Part shown: piece by piece, positions 11,953-38,700 of the stretch
Numbering within the stretch: position 1 is the stretch's first letter
Layout of the letters: every line of letters starts with the position of its first letter
Assembly (NCBI RefSeq): GCF_017921815.1
Contig: NZ_JAGEMM010000009.1
Location: 1 to 64,000, forward strand
Reading direction: 5' to 3'
Length of the DNA stretch: 64,000 bases
Source: Microvirga antarctica
Lineage (GTDB): Bacteria; Pseudomonadota; Alphaproteobacteria; Rhizobiales; Beijerinckiaceae
Translations under genes and position numbers: made by a program
Notes under the pieces: generated by a model
Seen by the model: only the letters and a program-made list of their open reading frames with translations
Told to the model about the DNA's origin: nothing
Databases searched by the model: none

Positions 11953-12396
11953 ATGCATCCGGTCAACGGCCTACCCGTGGATGGCGATCGCCAATATCTG
12001 ATGCCGCCTGGACTCAACACGGCGCGCGCGCGGAACGCTGCCTATTCCTATGGCGTTCGAACAGGCGACGTGGTGTGGCTTGCGGGCCAGATCTCGCGAG
12101 AGGCGGACGGTAGCCTTGTCGGCTCGGGCGACATCGCGGCACAGACCATCCAGTGTTTCGAGAATATGCGTAAGGTGGTCGAAGAAGCCGGCGGAAGCAT
12201 GAACGATATCGTCATGACAACCACCTATATCACCGATCGAGCGCATCGAAATATTGTCAACGATATCCGACTGAAGTATTTCCACGCGCCCCATCTGCCG
12301 GCATCCACATTGATCGTCGTCGCTGCTCTCGCGTTGCCGGAATACCTCATCGAAATCGATGCTATCGCCGTTGTAAACCAGGGATCTCGATCGTAA
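11953..12396 (+). CDS. RidA/YjgF-family protein lacking the catalytic arginine
   Basis: 147 residues with the chorismate-mutase-like RidA fold: GVRTGDVVWLAGQISREADG, MRKVVEEAGGSMNDIV and the terminal PASTLIVVAALALPEYLIEI region (given here as its start and end, PASTL and YLIEI). In imine deaminases such as E. coli RidA the P-A-R-S-C segment holds the active-site Arg; here it reads P-A-S-T-L, so Arg is replaced by Ser. Proteins of this kind belong to RidA subgroups without 2-iminoacid deaminase activity and often occur in catabolic operons. A GGAGACGGAG ribosome binding site precedes the ATG. Confidence 0.85.
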   Translation: MHPVNGLPVDGDRQYLMPPGLNTARARNAAYSYGVRTGDVVWLAGQISREADGSLVGSGDIAAQTIQCFENMRKVVEEAGGSMNDIVMTTTYITDRAHRNIVNDIRLKYFHAPHLPASTLIVVAALALPEYLIEIDAIAVVNQGSRS

Positions 12397-32496: not shown

Positions 32497-32649
32497 GAGG
32501 TTATCTTGCGACTTTATGGTTGGGCGTTTCCAGGTGGGGCTGCGACCTTAGGCCATTGACGCGCAGAACCTCAAGACTTGTCCACATGCCCGGCGCCCAA
32601 GTCCAATCGGCGGATGAAACAAACGGCCGGGTTTGCTAGGACAGGCGGG

Positions 32650-35373
32650 ATGTCATCCCAAGCGCTCTGTCAGCCCCCCGAAGCCAGCCCGCCCGACGAC
32701 GCGGCCGCGAAAGCAGCCCCCGCCGATCACCGCGTGACGCCCATGATGGCGCAGTATGTGGAGATCAAGGCCGCCAATCCGGATTGCCTGCTGTTCTACC
32801 GGATGGGCGATTTCTACGAACTGTTCTTCGAGGATGCGGAGACCGCCAGCCGGGCACTGGGCATCGTCCTGACCAAGCGGGGCAAGCATCAGGGCCAGGA
32901 CATCCCCATGTGCGGGGTACCCATCGACCGCGCCGACGATTATCTCCAGCGTCTCATCGGTCTCGGCCATCGGGTGGCGGTCTGCGAGCAGATGGAGGAC
33001 CCTGCCGAGGCTAAGAAGCGGGGCGCCAAATCGGTCGTGCGTCGCGACGTTGTCCGGCTCGTCACCCCCGGGACCATCACCGAGGAGCGCCTTCTCGATC
33101 CCGGCCGGCCGAACTTCTTCCTCGCCATCGCGCGGCGGAGGCTGTCGGAGACGGCGTGGCGTTACGGGTTGGCGGCGGTGGATATCTCGACCGGGCATTT
33201 CGCCCTGAGCGAGACCGATGCGGCAGGCCTTCCGGCCGAGATCGCGCGCTTCGAGCCGCGGGAGATCCTTCTCCCCGACAGCATCGCCGAGGACGCGGAC
33301 CTTGCGGCCTTCTGGCGTGAGACCCGCGCCTCGCTGACGCCCCTGTCGCGGGATGGGCTTGACCCTGCCTCAGCCGAACGACGGCTCAAGGAGTATTTCG
33401 GCGTCGCTACCCTCGACGCGTTCGGGGCATTCGACCGCGCCGCCATCGCGGCGGCGGGTTCGGCGTTGTTCTACATCGAGAAGACGCAGATCGGCAGCCG
33501 CCCGGTCCTCCACCCGCCGACCAGCAACCAGACTGGGGCTGCGCTCGCCATCGATGCGGCCACGCGCGCCAATCTCGAGCTGACCCGTACGCTCTCGGGC
33601 GAGCGTGCCGGCAGTTTGCTCGCGACGATCGATTGCACGGTCACGCCGGGCGGCGCCCGCCTTCTGGCCGAGCGGCTTGCCGGGCCGCTGACGCAGACCG
33701 GCCTGATCCGCGATCGCCACGACGCGGTCGCCTACCTGGTCGAGAACGCTAGCCTGCGGGACGCCGCGCGGCGGAACCTCAAACGCGCGCCCGATCTCGC
33801 CCGGGCCCTGTCCCGTCTCGGACTGGGCCGTGGCGGCCCCCGCGATCTCGCCTGTGTCCGCGACGCCCTGTTCGCCGCGCGCGATCTCGGCGCGTTGCTG
33901 GCCCGAAGCGCCCTGCCGACCGAACTCGCGGCCGCTGCCGCGACGCTCGGCTCGCTGCGGACGGAGATCGCCGACACGCTGCAGGCGGCGCTGGCGGACG
34001 AGATGCCGCTGCTGAAGCGCGACGGGGGCTTCATCCGCGCGGGCTACGACGCCACCCTCGACGAGCTGCGTGAGCTGCAGCAGGATTCCCGCCGGTTCAT
34101 CGCGGCCCTGCAGGCGCGCTACGCGAGCGAGACCGGCTGCCGCACGCTGCGCGTCAAGCACAACCACATGATCGGCTATTACGTGGAGGTGCCGCAGAAT
34201 ATCGGCGAGGACCTGCTCAAGGAGCCGTGGAAGGAAACCTTCGTGCATCGCCAGACCATGGCGGGCGCCATGAGGTTCTCCACCGTGGAGCTGGGCGAAC
34301 TCGAATCCAAGATCGCCTCCGCGTCGGACCGCGCAATGCGGATCGAGCTCGGTCACTTCGACAGCATGGCCGCGGGCCTCGTCTTGCAATCCGCCGAGAT
34401 TTCCGCCGCTGCCGAGGCGATGGCGGTGGTCGACGTCTGTGCGGCGCTGTCAGAACTTGCCGTCGATCGGGACTGGGTTCGGCCGGCAATCGACGACAGC
34501 CTGTCGTTTTCCATCAAGGCCGGCCGACACCCTGTGGTGGAGGCCGCGCTCAAGCGCGACGGGACGGCCTTCATCGCCAACGATTCGGAACTGTCCGGCG
34601 ATGATGCGGGCCATATCCTGCTGATTACCGGCCCGAACATGGGCGGCAAATCCACCTATCTGCGCCAGAACGCCCTGATGGTGGTGCTCGCCCAGATGGG
34701 CGCCTTCGTGCCCGCGAGATCCGCCCGGATCGGGATCGTCGACCGGTTGTTTTCGCGGGTCGGGGCAGCGGACGATCTTGCCCGCGGGCGCTCGACCTTC
34801 ATGGTCGAGATGGTGGAAACCGCCGCTATCCTGAATCAGGCAACCGCGCGCTCGCTCGTGATCCTTGACGAGATCGGGCGCGGCACCGCCACCTTCGACG
34901 GCCTGTCGATTGCCTGGGCGTCGATCGAACATCTGCACGAGACCAATCGCTGCCGTGCGCTGTTCGCCACCCATTTCCATGAGCTGACGGCGCTTGCCGA
35001 CAGGCTCGATCGGATCGAGAACGTCACGCTGAAAGTCACCGAGTGGAACAACGAGGTCGTGTTCCTGCATGAGGTGGTGCCGGGGGCGGCCGACCGGTCG
35101 TATGGGCTGCAAGTGGGCCGACTGGCGGGGCTGCCGGCCATCGTCGTCGAGCGCGCCCGCGCGATTCTCAGCGAGCTGGAGCGGACCGACCGGGAAAGTC
35201 CCAAACAGGCGTTGCTCGACGATCTCCCGCTGTTTGCCGCTCCGGTCAGGGCACCGCCCAGCCCGCCGCAGAGCGACACGCTGAGGATCGCATTGCAGGA
35301 GATCGATCCGGATCAGATGACGCCCCGGGAGGCTCTGGAGGCGCTCTATCGATTGAAAGCGACCGCCGGCTGA
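32650..35373 (+). CDS. mutS: DNA mismatch repair protein MutS
   Basis: 907 residues from the ATG at 32650; the frame extends to a TTG at 32578, but the extra codons are not family-like. The mismatch-binding N-terminal domain has the Phe-x-Glu motif in [10 protein letters not shown], and the C-terminal ABC-type ATPase has Walker [11 protein letters not shown], the STFMVEM loop and Walker [17 protein letters not shown]. The MutS dimer recognises mismatches and recruits MutL. A proline-rich linker near 865-885 precedes the C-terminal MutS dimer/tetramer tail. Divergent from maeB across about 150 bases. Confidence 0.95.
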
Positions 35374-35378
35374 GGTGA

Positions 35379-35831
35379 TCAGACGACCGACGGGGTGTCG
35401 GCGCGTGCACCCGCCACGAACGGGATGAAGGTCGTGGTGGGCGGCGCAGGTGACCTGCCGCTCTCGGCCGCCAGAACGTAGGCCAGGGCCTCTTTGACAC
35501 CCCGCTCGGTATAAGGCTTCGAGAGAACGCCGCTGGCGCCGGCGAAATCGGCCGGAATGCGCTTGGCGTTGGCGGTCATGAACACCACCGTGATGCCGCG
35601 TTCGGCCGCGAGCCGGCGGGCGACGTCGACCCCGGTGGGCCCATCCGTCAGGTGAATGTCAACGAGCGCGAGGTCGGGGCTGAACTGCTCGGCCTGCCGC
35701 AGGGCTTCGACCGAAGAGGTCGCGACGCTCACCACATCGTGGCCCGCATCCAGCAGCAGGCTTTCCAGCTCGAGAGCGATCAGGACCTCGTCCTCCACGA
35801 TCAGGATACGAAGCGATCTTTCGGTGTTCAC
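35379..35831 (-). CDS. Single-domain response regulator
   Basis: 150 residues from a GTG at 35831 preceded by GAGGAG. A receiver domain fills the protein: acidic pair in IVEDEVLIA, phospho-acceptor Asp in LALVDIHL, Thr in VFMTANA and Lys in LSKPYTERG. No output domain follows, only a 25-residue Pro-rich tail, so it must work through a partner protein. The start overlaps the stop of the histidine kinase gene (GTGA), so the two form a translationally coupled pair. Confidence 0.87.
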   Translation of the reverse strand: MNTERSLRILIVEDEVLIALELESLLLDAGHDVVSVATSSVEALRQAEQFSPDLALVDIHLTDGPTGVDVARRLAAERGITVVFMTANAKRIPADFAGASGVLSKPYTERGVKEALAYVLAAESGRSPAPPTTTFIPFVAGARADTPSVV

Positions 35832-36946
35832 GCGCGAATCTCCTCTGTGCCGACGGGCAGCACAACCTCTGCGCGGGTTCCTGCGCCGCGATCGCTCCAG
35901 GCCAGCTCTCCGCTGGATTGCCGCACCAGCAGGTCGATCAAAGTCCGGCCGAAGCACCCTTCGGGCGGAGGAGCGTGGTCGATGCCGACGCCGTCGTCAT
36001 CCACCACGATGTGGATCCGGTCGCCCCGATTGCGGATCTCCACAGTCAGGACGCCTTTGCGCCCGTCCGGGAACGCGTGCTTGACCGCATTTCCCACGAG
36101 TTCGTTCAGGAGCAGCGCCAGGGACGCTCCCTTCGCAGCGGGGATTTTGACAGCATCGACGTTAAGATTCAGTGTGACCTGATCCGGATGAAGATGGGAC
36201 GCCATCTCGGTCACCAGTTCGCGGGCAAACAGACCGAGGTCGAAGCGTCCGAGATCGCCGCCCGTATACAAAAGTCGATGGACCGTCGACAGGGCTGCCA
36301 CTCGCTCGGCGAGTTCGTTCAGCACGCGCCGGGTTTCAGGACTCCGGACACGCCTTGCCTTCAGCAGCACCAGGGAGGCGATGACCTGGAGGCTGTTCTT
36401 GACGCGATGATCGACTTCGTGGAGCAAGGCGGTCTTCTGGTCGAGAGCGGTCTGAAGATCGGCCGTCCGGCGAGCAATCTCGCGCTCAAGCATGCGCCGC
36501 GATTCCGCACTCTCCAACGCCTGATGCCTCATGGGGGTCACATCGCGCTGTGACACGGACACATAGATCAGTTGGCCGTCTGCGTCGGCGATCGGACGAA
36601 TGGCGACCGCGCTCCAGAACGAAGACCCATCCTTGCGGTAGCTGAGAATCTCGGCCTCGATCGCTACGCCGGACGCAAGCGCCCGATGGATAGCAGCTGC
36701 GGTTTCTGGATCCGACTCGGGGCCGTGGAGGAAATCTCCCGGTCGCCCCTGCGTTTCCGCAGAGTCATAACCGGTCAGCCTCGAGAAAGCCGCATTGGCG
36801 AATACGACCGGCGTGTTGTGCGTGTGAGGGTCCAGCATCGAAATGGCGACAGGAGCCGTGTCGAAGATGGCCTTGTAAGGGTCGCTGATTGTCCTGTCCG
36901 GGGGTGGCCGAGCCATTTGATCGAGAGGGCTGGACTTGGCCGGCAT
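35828..36946 (-). CDS. PAS (degenerate LOV-like) sensor histidine kinase of the HisKA_2 type
   Basis: 372 residues from the ATG at 36946 (CAGGGA upstream); the open frame continues to 37024. PAS domain at about 23-137: VVFANAAFSRLTGY and FLHGPESDP match LOV domains, but the flavin-adduct motif NCRFLQGP reads PGDFLHGP, with Gly70 at the Cys position, and the later NYRKDG/FWN asparagines are Ser (SYRKDGSSFWS). The HisKA_2 dimerisation domain has LLHEVDHRVKNSLQ with His180 as phospho-acceptor, and the ATPase domain has LNELVGNAVKHAF and DDDGVGI. Cytosolic; its partner is the single-domain regulator downstream. Confidence 0.88.
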   Translation of the reverse strand: MPAKSSPLDQMARPPPDRTISDPYKAIFDTAPVAISMLDPHTHNTPVVFANAAFSRLTGYDSAETQGRPGDFLHGPESDPETAAAIHRALASGVAIEAEILSYRKDGSSFWSAVAIRPIADADGQLIYVSVSQRDVTPMRHQALESAESRRMLEREIARRTADLQTALDQKTALLHEVDHRVKNSLQVIASLVLLKARRVRSPETRRVLNELAERVAALSTVHRLLYTGGDLGRFDLGLFARELVTEMASHLHPDQVTLNLNVDAVKIPAAKGASLALLLNELVGNAVKHAFPDGRKGVLTVEIRNRGDRIHIVVDDDGVGIDHAPPPEGCFGRTLIDLLVRQSSGELAWSDRGAGTRAEVVLPVGTEEIRA

Positions 36947-37161
36947 GATATTCCCTGGTTTGACGCCACGCTCCGTGAGAAGGGCCGGCGGCCGTGTAGG
37001 CCACGACGGGGCCTGCCGCGACAATATCTCTCACAACGGGCGAGAATCCCCACGGTTCCCAGCCCTTTTGCGCTGCGACAAAACTCGTCATCCCGTGAAT
37101 TGAAACACTATCGCATTTCCTGCGCGTTCGGTACACACGTCGAACGGCAGGGAGGCCAACC

Positions 37162-38700
37162 ATGGTCACGCGGGTTTCAACCGTCGCCTTTGAGGGCATC
37201 GAGGCGCGACCGGTCGACGTTCAGGTCCAGATTGCGCCCGGGAACGTCGCCTTCATGATCGTCGGGCTTGCCGACAAGGCGGTGGCAGAATCGCGCGAGC
37301 GCGTCCGCTCGGCGCTCATCGCATCCGGGCTCTCGCTTCCCGCCAAGCGCATCACCGTGAACCTTGCCCCGGCAGATCTGCCCAAGGAGGGCAGCCACTA
37401 CGATCTGCCGATCGCGCTCGGGGTCATGGCCGCCATGGGGGCCATTCCGGCCGACGCGCTGAACGGCTTTACCGTGCTGGGAGAGCTTGCCCTCGACGGC
37501 TCGATCACGGCAGTGGCGGGCGTCCTGACCGCCGCCATCGCGGCAAACGGAAACGGTCATGGGCTGATCTGCCCCCATCCCTGCGGACCGGAGGCTGCGT
37601 GGGCCAGCAGCGACCTCGAGATACTGGCGCCGCGGTCGCTGATTCAGCTCGCCAATCATTTCAAGGGAACGCAGGTGATGGCCCGCCCCGAACCCGCCAT
37701 CTTGCCGAGCTCCGGTCCGCAACCGGATCTGCGCGACATCAAGGGACAGGAAAGCGCCAAGCGGACCCTCGAGATTGCGGCCGCCGGCGCGCATAATCTG
37801 CTCATGAGCGGTCCGCCGGGCGCCGGCAAGTCAATGCTGGCCCAACGCCTGCCGTCGATTCTGCCGCCGCTGACGCCCCGCGAACTGCTCGAGGTCTCGA
37901 TGATCCAGTCCGTGGCGGGCCTGCTGGCGAACGGCGCATTGTCGAGCCGTCGGCCGTTCCGCGCGCCCCATCACTCCGCCTCCATGGCGGCGCTGGTGGG
38001 CGGGGGGCTCAACGCCCGTCCCGGCGAGGCCTCGCTTGCGCATCATGGCGTCCTGTTTCTCGACGAGATGCCGGAATTTCAGCCGCAAGTCCTGGATTCC
38101 CTGCGCCAGCCTCTCGAGGCGGGCGAAATCCTCATCGCGCGCGCCAATCACCGGGTTACCTATCCGGCCCGCTTCCAGCTCGTGGCGGCCATGAATCCGT
38201 GCCGGTGCGGACAGGCGAGGGAACCGGGATACGTCTGTCGCCGTCAGCCGAATGAACGCTGCATGGCGCATTATCAGGCCCGTATCTCGGGACCGCTGCT
38301 CGATCGCATCGACCTGTCCATCGAGGTGCCGGCCATTGCAGCCTCGGATCTGATCCTTCCACCGCCGACCGAGGGCTCCGCCGAGGCGAAGGCGAGGGTC
38401 AAGATCGCACGGGACCGGCAGGCGAGACGCTTCGCGGCCCTGGGACTCGACAGCATTTCCACGAACGCCGCCTGCCCTGCTGCCGTCATCGAGCAGATCG
38501 CCCAACCGGATCGCGAGGGGACCGCCCTGCTTCACGACGCCGCCAATGCGATGCGCCTTTCCGCGCGCGGATTTCACCGGGTGCTCAAGGTCGCGCGAAC
38601 CCTGGCCGATCTCGACAGCGAGGAGCATGTTCGCCGGATTCACCTGGCCGAGGCCCTGTCGTACCGGGCGCAATCGGATCGCCGGCCAAACGCCGCCTGA
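37162..38700 (+). CDS. comM: YifB/ComM-family AAA ATPase (Mg-chelatase subunit ChlI-like)
   Basis: 512 residues. The N-terminal Lon-protease-S16-like domain starts MVTRVSTVAFEGIEARPVDV. The AAA core has Walker A MSGPPGAGKSML and sensor/Walker B GVLFLDEMPEFQ. The zinc-finger-like CRCGQAREPGYVC insert and the Mg_chelatase C-terminal domain follow. The family includes ComM, a helicase for branch migration in natural transformation. The ribosome binding site AGGGAGG is strong. It is divergent from the sensor kinase gene. Confidence 0.9.
   Translation: MVTRVSTVAFEGIEARPVDVQVQIAPGNVAFMIVGLADKAVAESRERVRSALIASGLSLPAKRITVNLAPADLPKEGSHYDLPIALGVMAAMGAIPADALNGFTVLGELALDGSITAVAGVLTAAIAANGNGHGLICPHPCGPEAAWASSDLEILAPRSLIQLANHFKGTQVMARPEPAILPSSGPQPDLRDIKGQESAKRTLEIAAAGAHNLLMSGPPGAGKSMLAQRLPSILPPLTPRELLEVSMIQSVAGLLANGALSSRRPFRAPHHSASMAALVGGGLNARPGEASLAHHGVLFLDEMPEFQPQVLDSLRQPLEAGEILIARANHRVTYPARFQLVAAMNPCRCGQAREPGYVCRRQPNERCMAHYQARISGPLLDRIDLSIEVPAIAASDLILPPPTEGSAEAKARVKIARDRQARRFAALGLDSISTNAACPAAVIEQIAQPDREGTALLHDAANAMRLSARGFHRVLKVARTLADLDSEEHVRRIHLAEALSYRAQSDRRPNAA

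Follow-up and report, generated by a model that had tools for sequence, protein, structure and literature searches.

In Caulobacter crescentus, the genes lovK and lovR are controlled by SigT and together act as a phosphate sink that keeps the general stress response in check, with LovK acting as both phosphotransferase and phosphatase of LovR (PMC5964349, available part of the text). The LOV histidine kinase of Brucella transfers phosphate to LovR and PhyR; it has an extra PAS domain and is not encoded beside LovR, according to the accessible sections of PMC4438053. This kinase and EL346 from Erythrobacter (6ph4, 3t50 and 4r3a) are HWE/HisKA2-type LOV kinases that carry the NCRFLQG motif with the adduct-forming Cys. 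Naturally occurring LOV proteins without this Cys were described by Yee et al. (2015) as a flavin-binding class, defined in the accessible part of the paper (PMC4682037) by the absence of the Cys and the retention of at least nine of ten other conserved LOV residues. The same part of that paper reports that Cys-less Vivid, Cys-less YF1 and the natural BAT LOV domain signal by photoreduction or redox change. Among single-domain response regulators, MrrA, SdrG and Mext_0407 are defined by the FATGUY motif PFxFATG(G/Y) (PMC5964349, same part as above), and CstR of Methylobacterium, which is Mext_1965, is another single-domain regulator (PMC13344952, available excerpt). A literature search whose scope left out most subscription journals found no paper on Microvirga with a LOV domain, and the titles and abstract openings listed contained no publication describing the kinase and response-regulator locus between mutS and comM that we report here.

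We analysed a stretch of 64,000 nucleotides from Microvirga antarctica (the window), in which a sensor histidine kinase and a response regulator are encoded between mutS and comM (Table 1). A reading made from the letters alone (the sequence-only reading) had proposed that the kinase is coupled to a single-domain response regulator. Indeed, both genes are read on the minus strand of 35379-36946, and the GTG start of the regulator overlaps the stop codon of the kinase by four bases (GTGA, at 35828-35831). The conserved order of the two genes and this overlap suggest one transcription unit, as in an operon of the LovK-LovR type. The kinase has the features of the HWE/HisKA_2 general-stress type, namely a HisKA_2 domain (8.8e-21), an HRVKN phosphoacceptor motif and a HATPase_c domain; His180, Arg181, Lys183 and Asn184 are invariant in 11 aligned orthologs, as are Asn281, Asn286, Asp317, Gly319, Gly321 and Gly333 of the catalytic domain. 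The regulator is a lone receiver domain according to Pfam. It scores 175.9 bits against the NCBIfam model PRK13435.1-4, for which the curated cut-off is 158, and, of all matches to the PhyR family model in its own genome, only one is better. The window shares with the Caulobacter system an apparently LOV-derived HisKA_2 kinase, a single-domain response regulator, their location at one locus and a stress sigma motif (PMC5964349 and PMC4438053, in the parts available).

Table 1. Features of the kinase and response-regulator locus (positions in the window)
Feature	Position	Strand	Basis or remark
mutS flank	32578-35373	+	name from reading of the protein
Single-domain response regulator, 150 aa	35379..35831	-	Pfam Response_reg 9e-16; NCBIfam PRK13435.1-4
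Phosphoacceptor Asp58 codon of the response regulator	35658-35660	-	receiver domain
Sensor histidine kinase, 372 aa (PAS former LOV + HisKA_2 + HATPase_c)	35828..36946	-	translation; Pfam PAS_9 1.4e-16, HisKA_2 8.8e-21, HATPase_c 9.4e-9
HATPase_c catalytic domain, residues 275-365	35852..36124	-	Pfam
HisKA_2 dimerisation/phosphoacceptor domain with HRVKN; His180 codon at 36407-36409	36200..36418	-	Pfam
PAS (former LOV) domain, residues 21-140	36527..36886	-	solved-chain matches, AlphaFold model, Foldseek
Gln133, signalling Gln, sole polar FMN contact retained	36548..36550	-	Gln in 31/36 Cys rows
Ser112 replacing the second FMN-binding Asn (FWN to FWS)	36611..36613	-	Asn in 35/36 Cys rows
Ser102 replacing the first FMN-binding Asn (LNYRKDG to LSYRKDG)	36641..36643	-	Asn in 36/36 Cys rows
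RPGDFLHGP, residues 68-76, replacing RNCRFLQGP (Asn69Pro, Cys70Gly, Arg71Asp, Gln74His)	36719..36745	-	alignment
Codon of Gly70, which replaces the adduct-forming Cys	36737..36739	-	53 aligned rows
EcfG-type promoter motif GGAAC-N16-CGTT, GGAACCGTGGGGATTCTCGCCCGTT, upstream of the operon	37035..37059	-	conserved in Microvirga
comM flank	37162-38700	+	name from reading of the protein

Sequence and structure comparisons show that the PAS domain derives from the LOV domain of a blue-light histidine kinase. The LOV hallmarks pointed out by the sequence-only reading, FANAAFSRLTGY, FLHGPESDP and YRKDG, are all present in the translation of the kinase. Among the best 60 of 157 solved chains (E <= 0.001), not all of which are titled LOV, the top-scoring ones are LOV kinases and LOV domains. 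An AlphaFold model built from 11 orthologs reaches a mean pLDDT of 80.4, and the blocks covering residues 31-140 have values of 88-94. With this model, Foldseek placed the LOV kinase EL346 at the top for the full-length protein, at a low whole-chain TM-score of 0.39, and superposed the PAS domain on the Brucella LOV domain 3t50_A with an r.m.s.d. of 1.3 Å and a TMt of 0.89. The Brucella and Erythrobacter kinases are among the best matches in sequence and fold, and both the comparison of sequences and the predicted model point to a PAS/LOV fold of common descent.

The gene neighbourhood gives a direction to this descent. Of the twelve relatives that turned up in a collection of named genomes, ten belong to Microvirga. 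The order mutS, response regulator, kinase and comM recurs across Microvirga, and Microvirga lenta SM9 has at this position an ortholog, 54% identical to the window kinase, with the same downstream regulator, upstream motif and flanking genes; it differs from the window kinase by its full LOV signature, with NCRFLQGP, LNYRKDG and FWN all intact. Outside Microvirga, mutS, the regulator and the kinase occur together at four of the 12 loci examined, all in the sister genus g33 and all with the Cys. Nine of these 12 loci end about 1.5 kb beyond the kinase, which possibly leaves mutS out of sight in some, and two loci of 10 kb lack mutS. Because the intact LOV signature is found at the equivalent locus of M. 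lenta and Cys kinases are found in g33, we regard the Cys form as ancestral and the form in the window as derived.

An ordinary PAS domain that merely resembles LOV is accordingly an explanation to which we give almost no weight. Generic PAS models of Pfam do match the domain, but the best sequence and fold matches are LOV proteins, and an intact LOV ortholog occupies the same locus. Close homology to a non-LOV PAS family, which the sequence-only reading had named as the result that would overturn it, was sought with family models, solved chains and Foldseek, and none was found. The kinase scores 178.3 bits against NCBIfam NF052306, the family of blue-light-activated histidine kinases, for which the cut-off is 450. 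Five scanned relatives, four of them with an intact LOV domain, reach 174.5-239.5 bits and all stay under this value as well; the cut-off therefore does not discriminate LOV kinases here. NF052306 ranks second among the 33 NCBIfam families matching the kinase, after a subfamily named only "hypothetical protein".

The predicted fold is that of a LOV domain, but the flavin pocket has not been preserved. From 71 distinct kinase rows, 18 that were truncated, belonged to another family (the GQDPHFMNG group) or were too remote were excluded before trees and counts. In the 53 aligned rows, the Cys position is occupied by Cys in 36 and by Trp in 13; Gly is found in the window kinase only. The sequence-only reading had correctly identified Gly70 at the site of the adduct-forming Cys and Ser102 and Ser112 at the sites of two FMN-binding Asn residues. 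Beyond these, we found four further contacts altered: Pro69 replaces an Asn present in 35 of the 36 rows with Cys (Cys rows), Asp71 an Arg present in 35/36, His74 a Gln present in 36/36 and His87 an Arg present in 29/36, the last being less telling for its lower conservation; M. lenta and another Microvirga kinase (genome G007) also lack this Arg. The positions that we assume to contact FMN (Asn-1, Arg+1, Gln+4, Arg+17, two Asn and Gln) were taken from AsLOV2. Three contacts of AsLOV2, N482, N492 and Q513, are named in the accessible part of PMC9098866. Six of the seven polar FMN contacts are changed in the window PAS domain and one, Gln133, is kept; this signalling Gln is gone in all 13 Trp rows.

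We compared the contact positions with other conserved positions of the domain. At sites conserved in at least 34 of the 36 Cys rows, the window kinase keeps none of five polar FMN contacts versus 19 of 23 other residues (Fisher p = 0.0013). Lowering the threshold to 29/36 gives 1/7 contacts kept versus 28/36 others (p = 0.0028), and raising it to 36/36 gives 0/2 versus 13/14 (p = 0.025). We consider this pattern to be beyond chance because the kinase, the regulator and their gene order recur in Microvirga and because the FMN-contact sites fare unlike other, equally conserved sites.

The usual flavin-cysteinyl adduct is impossible because the Cys is absent, as the sequence-only reading had expected, and the additional pocket changes argue against any binding of flavin. 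With the adduct Cys gone and the polar flavin contacts almost all lost, the window PAS domain most likely contains no flavin, and no light would enter the kinase through it; the retained Gln133 leaves some doubt about the loss of flavin. The photoactive sensor of a LovK-LovR type operon, with its Cys and FMN contacts, is therefore missing from the window, in contrast to LovK and to the Brucella and Erythrobacter kinases with their NCRFLQG motif.

That the Cys-less domain continues to bind FMN and signals by photoreduction or redox change, as other LOV domains without the Cys are able to do (PMC4682037, part available), appears very unlikely, even though Gln133, Phe72, Leu73 and Gly75 are kept. 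The proteins of Yee et al. likewise have a LOV-derived PAS domain without the adduct Cys, but, as stated in the same part of the paper, they were selected for retaining the other conserved LOV residues, and the window domain does not retain them. It keeps four of the nine named residues, which places it outside the class by the rule of at least nine out of ten, and the residues corresponding to N69, R71, Q74, R87, N102 and N112 are all altered.

The loss may extend to the whole organism. A scan of the complete window genome found no stretch encoding NCRFLQG, which is also absent from 33 of the 48 Microvirga genomes. A search with the LOV domain of M. lenta gave six matches in the window genome, and the five that were aligned all lack the Cys. 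Together, these two findings suggest that M. antarctica probably no longer senses light through any LOV domain, leaving aside the sixth match and variants of the motif.

We also noticed a second family of Cys-less LOV-like PAS domains, typically with GQDPHFMNGEGTDPE, LQYRKDG and FRAML or FWAML, beside kinase domains. It occurs in numerous Microvirga genomes and also in a second genus of the family (L029, L031, L033-L035, L063-L067, L103 and L104), and one copy lies in the genome of the window itself (L169, G000:C165:7149-7499), within a frame of 736 aa. In another genus of the same family, one domain (L090, genome G106) carries Val in place of the Cys and differs at all seven polar FMN contacts.

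We surveyed the stretch from mutS to comM in 47 of 48 Microvirga genomes; the remaining one, G025, in which comM was not found, was excluded. Kinase and regulator are both present in 15 of the 47 genomes, the regulator occurs without an intact kinase in 24 and the kinase without the regulator in two (G002 and G007), and neither gene is found at the locus in six. The 17 Microvirga kinases have Trp at the Cys position in 13 cases, Cys in two (M. lenta and G007), Gly in the window and Phe in G002. The closest relative of the window genome, G021, lacks both genes at the locus (L115, G021:C15), where mutS and comM are separated by 90 bases and the EcfG-type motif is gone. In G011, G070 and G005, stretches of 829-2326 bases between mutS and comM contain no match to the kinase or the regulator.

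In a tree of MutS and ComM, the window genome and its sister G021 branch off earlier than M. lenta and the Trp group do (SH-aLRT 99, or 95 with a mixture model), and G002 diverges before them (SH-aLRT 87 with or without the mixture model). The root of this tree is weak, as the outgroup fills 35% of the columns and joins the long G007 branch or, in a second version, is G007 alone. On this species tree, Dollo parsimony, which takes the genes as present at the root, passed on vertically and never regained, counts three losses of the Cys, 11 of the kinase and six of the regulator; the three Cys losses depend on the MutS and ComM tree and on these assumptions. In trees of the kinase itself, the window kinase groups weakly with the Trp kinases (88/45; 77/52.6), which would fit a single loss of the Cys there. 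The AU test on the kinase tree rejected neither a grouping of the Trp group with M. lenta (p 0.367) nor one of all Cys-less Microvirga kinases (p 0.232), so that kinase trees by themselves are compatible with different numbers of Cys losses.

Scraps of the C-terminal part of the kinase lie directly before the regulator in 16 of the 24 genomes that retain the regulator only (E <= 1e-3; 30 intergenic stretches searched), and at the same threshold five runs with shuffled queries and one with reversed queries found none in the 30 stretches. At E <= 0.05, the real queries matched 18/30 stretches, the shuffled ones 1, 0, 1, 1 and 0, and the reversed one 0. Because such relics remain before the regulator, many of the kinase losses are plainly deletions, as read from these sequences.

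These losses raise the question of whether the window kinase is itself a decaying remnant without a role, heading for deletion, with only the regulator of importance. The 11 losses by Dollo parsimony with their relics, the closest relative devoid of both genes at the locus and the faster evolution of the PAS half would fit such decay. We nevertheless judge it quite unlikely, because the reading frame of the window kinase is intact over 372 codons with its catalytic motifs present, the promoter motif is retained, and the catalytic half of the Trp-group kinases has an omega of about 0.18.

The flanking comM gene shows breaks of its own. It is in separate pieces in G006, G007, G031, G036, G062, G067 and G069, broken near codons 76-82 or 213-285, and the pieces are either kilobases from each other (about 3.6 kb in G007, 16 kb in G062 and 46 kb in G036) or on different contigs. 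comM is known as an insertion hotspot in Acinetobacter. From its sequence, comM looks like an insertion hotspot here too, assembly breaks being the alternative.

The two halves of the kinase differ in their rates of change. The mean ratio of dN in the PAS half to dN in the kinase half is 2.99 in the Trp group (58 pairs), whereas two Cys groups have values of 1.24 (66 pairs) and 0.71 (29 pairs), the pairs not being independent. The mean omega of the PAS domain, again from pairs that are not independent, is 0.35 in the Trp group, between the values of the two Cys groups (0.45 and 0.24). Being well under 1, this value indicates that the PAS domain is not free to drift; as it lies between those of the Cys groups, relaxation is visible only relative to the kinase half. 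With 12 Cys rows from the sister clade as the reference, the ratio of PAS to kinase divergence is 1.37 for the window; M. lenta has 1.10, G007 has 0.82 and the Trp rows have 1.29-1.57.

It is conceivable that what was once a LOV pocket now serves a different input, with the PAS domain binding another small molecule or sensing via a rebuilt core as a chemical stress sensor. The PAS fold is predicted with high confidence, the 13 Trp-type orthologs keep their PAS domain under purifying selection with Trp fixed in all of them, and the window retains most of the near-invariant LOV positions outside the pocket (19/23, see above). However, we found no ligand-binding signature, Gly70 occurs in none of the 52 other aligned rows, so that no conserved new pocket is demonstrable, and the elevated dN ratio of the Trp group looks more like relaxed than new constraint. 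We therefore consider a new input unlikely.

The response regulator, according to its sequences, is under strong purifying selection even where the kinase is gone. Its median omega is 0.14 in genomes with the regulator only (178 pairs) versus 0.12 beside Trp-type kinases (78 pairs), and all 24 regulator-only genomes encode the acidic trio, Asp58, Thr86 and Lys105 without any change.

The likeness to general-stress systems proposed in the sequence-only reading is backed independently by the EcfG-type motif conserved at the locus, the PhyR-NepR-sigma set of the genome and the parallel with the published lovK-lovR pair. Upstream of the operon, the window carries the putative general-stress sigma motif of a LovK-LovR type operon, GGAAC-N16-CGTT, in conserved form. 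A strict motif, GGAAC-N15-18-CGTT, is found at this place of the locus in all 39 Microvirga genomes that keep the regulator and in none of the six that lack both genes, and the letters of the spacer vary. The two kinase-only genomes have a strict (G007) or a loose (G002) form, and among the six genomes without both genes, G005 carries a loose form. A motif of a similar kind, GGAAC-N17-20-GTT, is given for EcfG of Sphingomonas in the available portion of PMC6599016. Outside Microvirga, the strict motif lies within 450 bases upstream in 7 of 40 rows versus 0 of 40 in the reversed control; six of these 40 rows are other kinase families, all without the motif. The motif is not enriched by count, either in the window (two found versus 1.12 expected; 30 of 100 shuffles reach two) or genome-wide (74 matches versus 79 in the reversed control). 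The case for EcfG control therefore depends on conservation at the locus. PhyR, NepR and an ECF sigma factor are encoded next to each other in the window genome, and the same motif ends 93 bases before nepR.

Two further occurrences of the motif were noted. One strict match, GGAAC-N17-CGTT, lies on the plus strand at 12032-12057 of the window, where about one is expected by chance. Elsewhere in the genome, a regulator resembling the PhyR receiver is encoded in a 148-aa frame (G000:C110:818537-818890). A kinase match lies close to it on the opposite strand (817859-818380), and a strict EcfG-type motif immediately precedes it (818926-818950), so that this is possibly a second stress-controlled regulator.

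Unlike the Caulobacter system, the window genome offers no FATGUY hub by exact pattern. The window regulator reads TVVFMTANA and lacks the motif, and the exact pattern, which variants would escape, gave two matches in the genome, neither in a response regulator by translation. For this reason, the phosphate sink that runs through MrrA in Caulobacter cannot be transferred unchanged to the window.

Weighing these results, we somewhat favour the view that the locus is a LovK-LovR type general-stress operon without light input, in which the kinase serves as a stress-induced, light-independent feedback kinase or phosphotransferase for its own regulator. Stress would free EcfG and thereby switch on the operon. 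The light-independent kinase would then exchange phosphate with the regulator as kinase, phosphotransferase or phosphatase, and this exchange could damp or tune the phosphate supply of the general stress response, by analogy with LovK-LovR in Caulobacter. As such feedback would need stress induction and phosphate exchange but not light, the loss of the pocket together with the retention of the operon would be explained. The regulator would be the core kept by selection, and the kinase, above all its sensor, would be expendable in Microvirga. That the regulator often outlives the kinase suggests that other kinases may serve it.

Taken more broadly, the mutS-comM locus might be a natural dismantling series, an idea that we put forward only tentatively and hold to be possible rather than probable. 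In such a series, light sensing would have been lost in at least three lineages through loss of the whole pocket (Gly, Trp and Phe), some sensors would have been rebuilt for an input other than light, as the Trp fixed in 13/13 kinases might indicate, the kinase would have been deleted about 11 times, and the stress-induced regulator would have been kept in most lineages as an independent node of the general stress response served by several kinases.

Across 47 genomes, one syntenic locus thus presents the photoreceptor in intact and in light-blind form, losses of the kinase that left relics, and a lone response regulator under strong selection. With this material, two questions become testable within one genus, namely which role a LOV kinase has in the stress response besides light sensing, and from where an orphaned single-domain response regulator obtains its phosphate.
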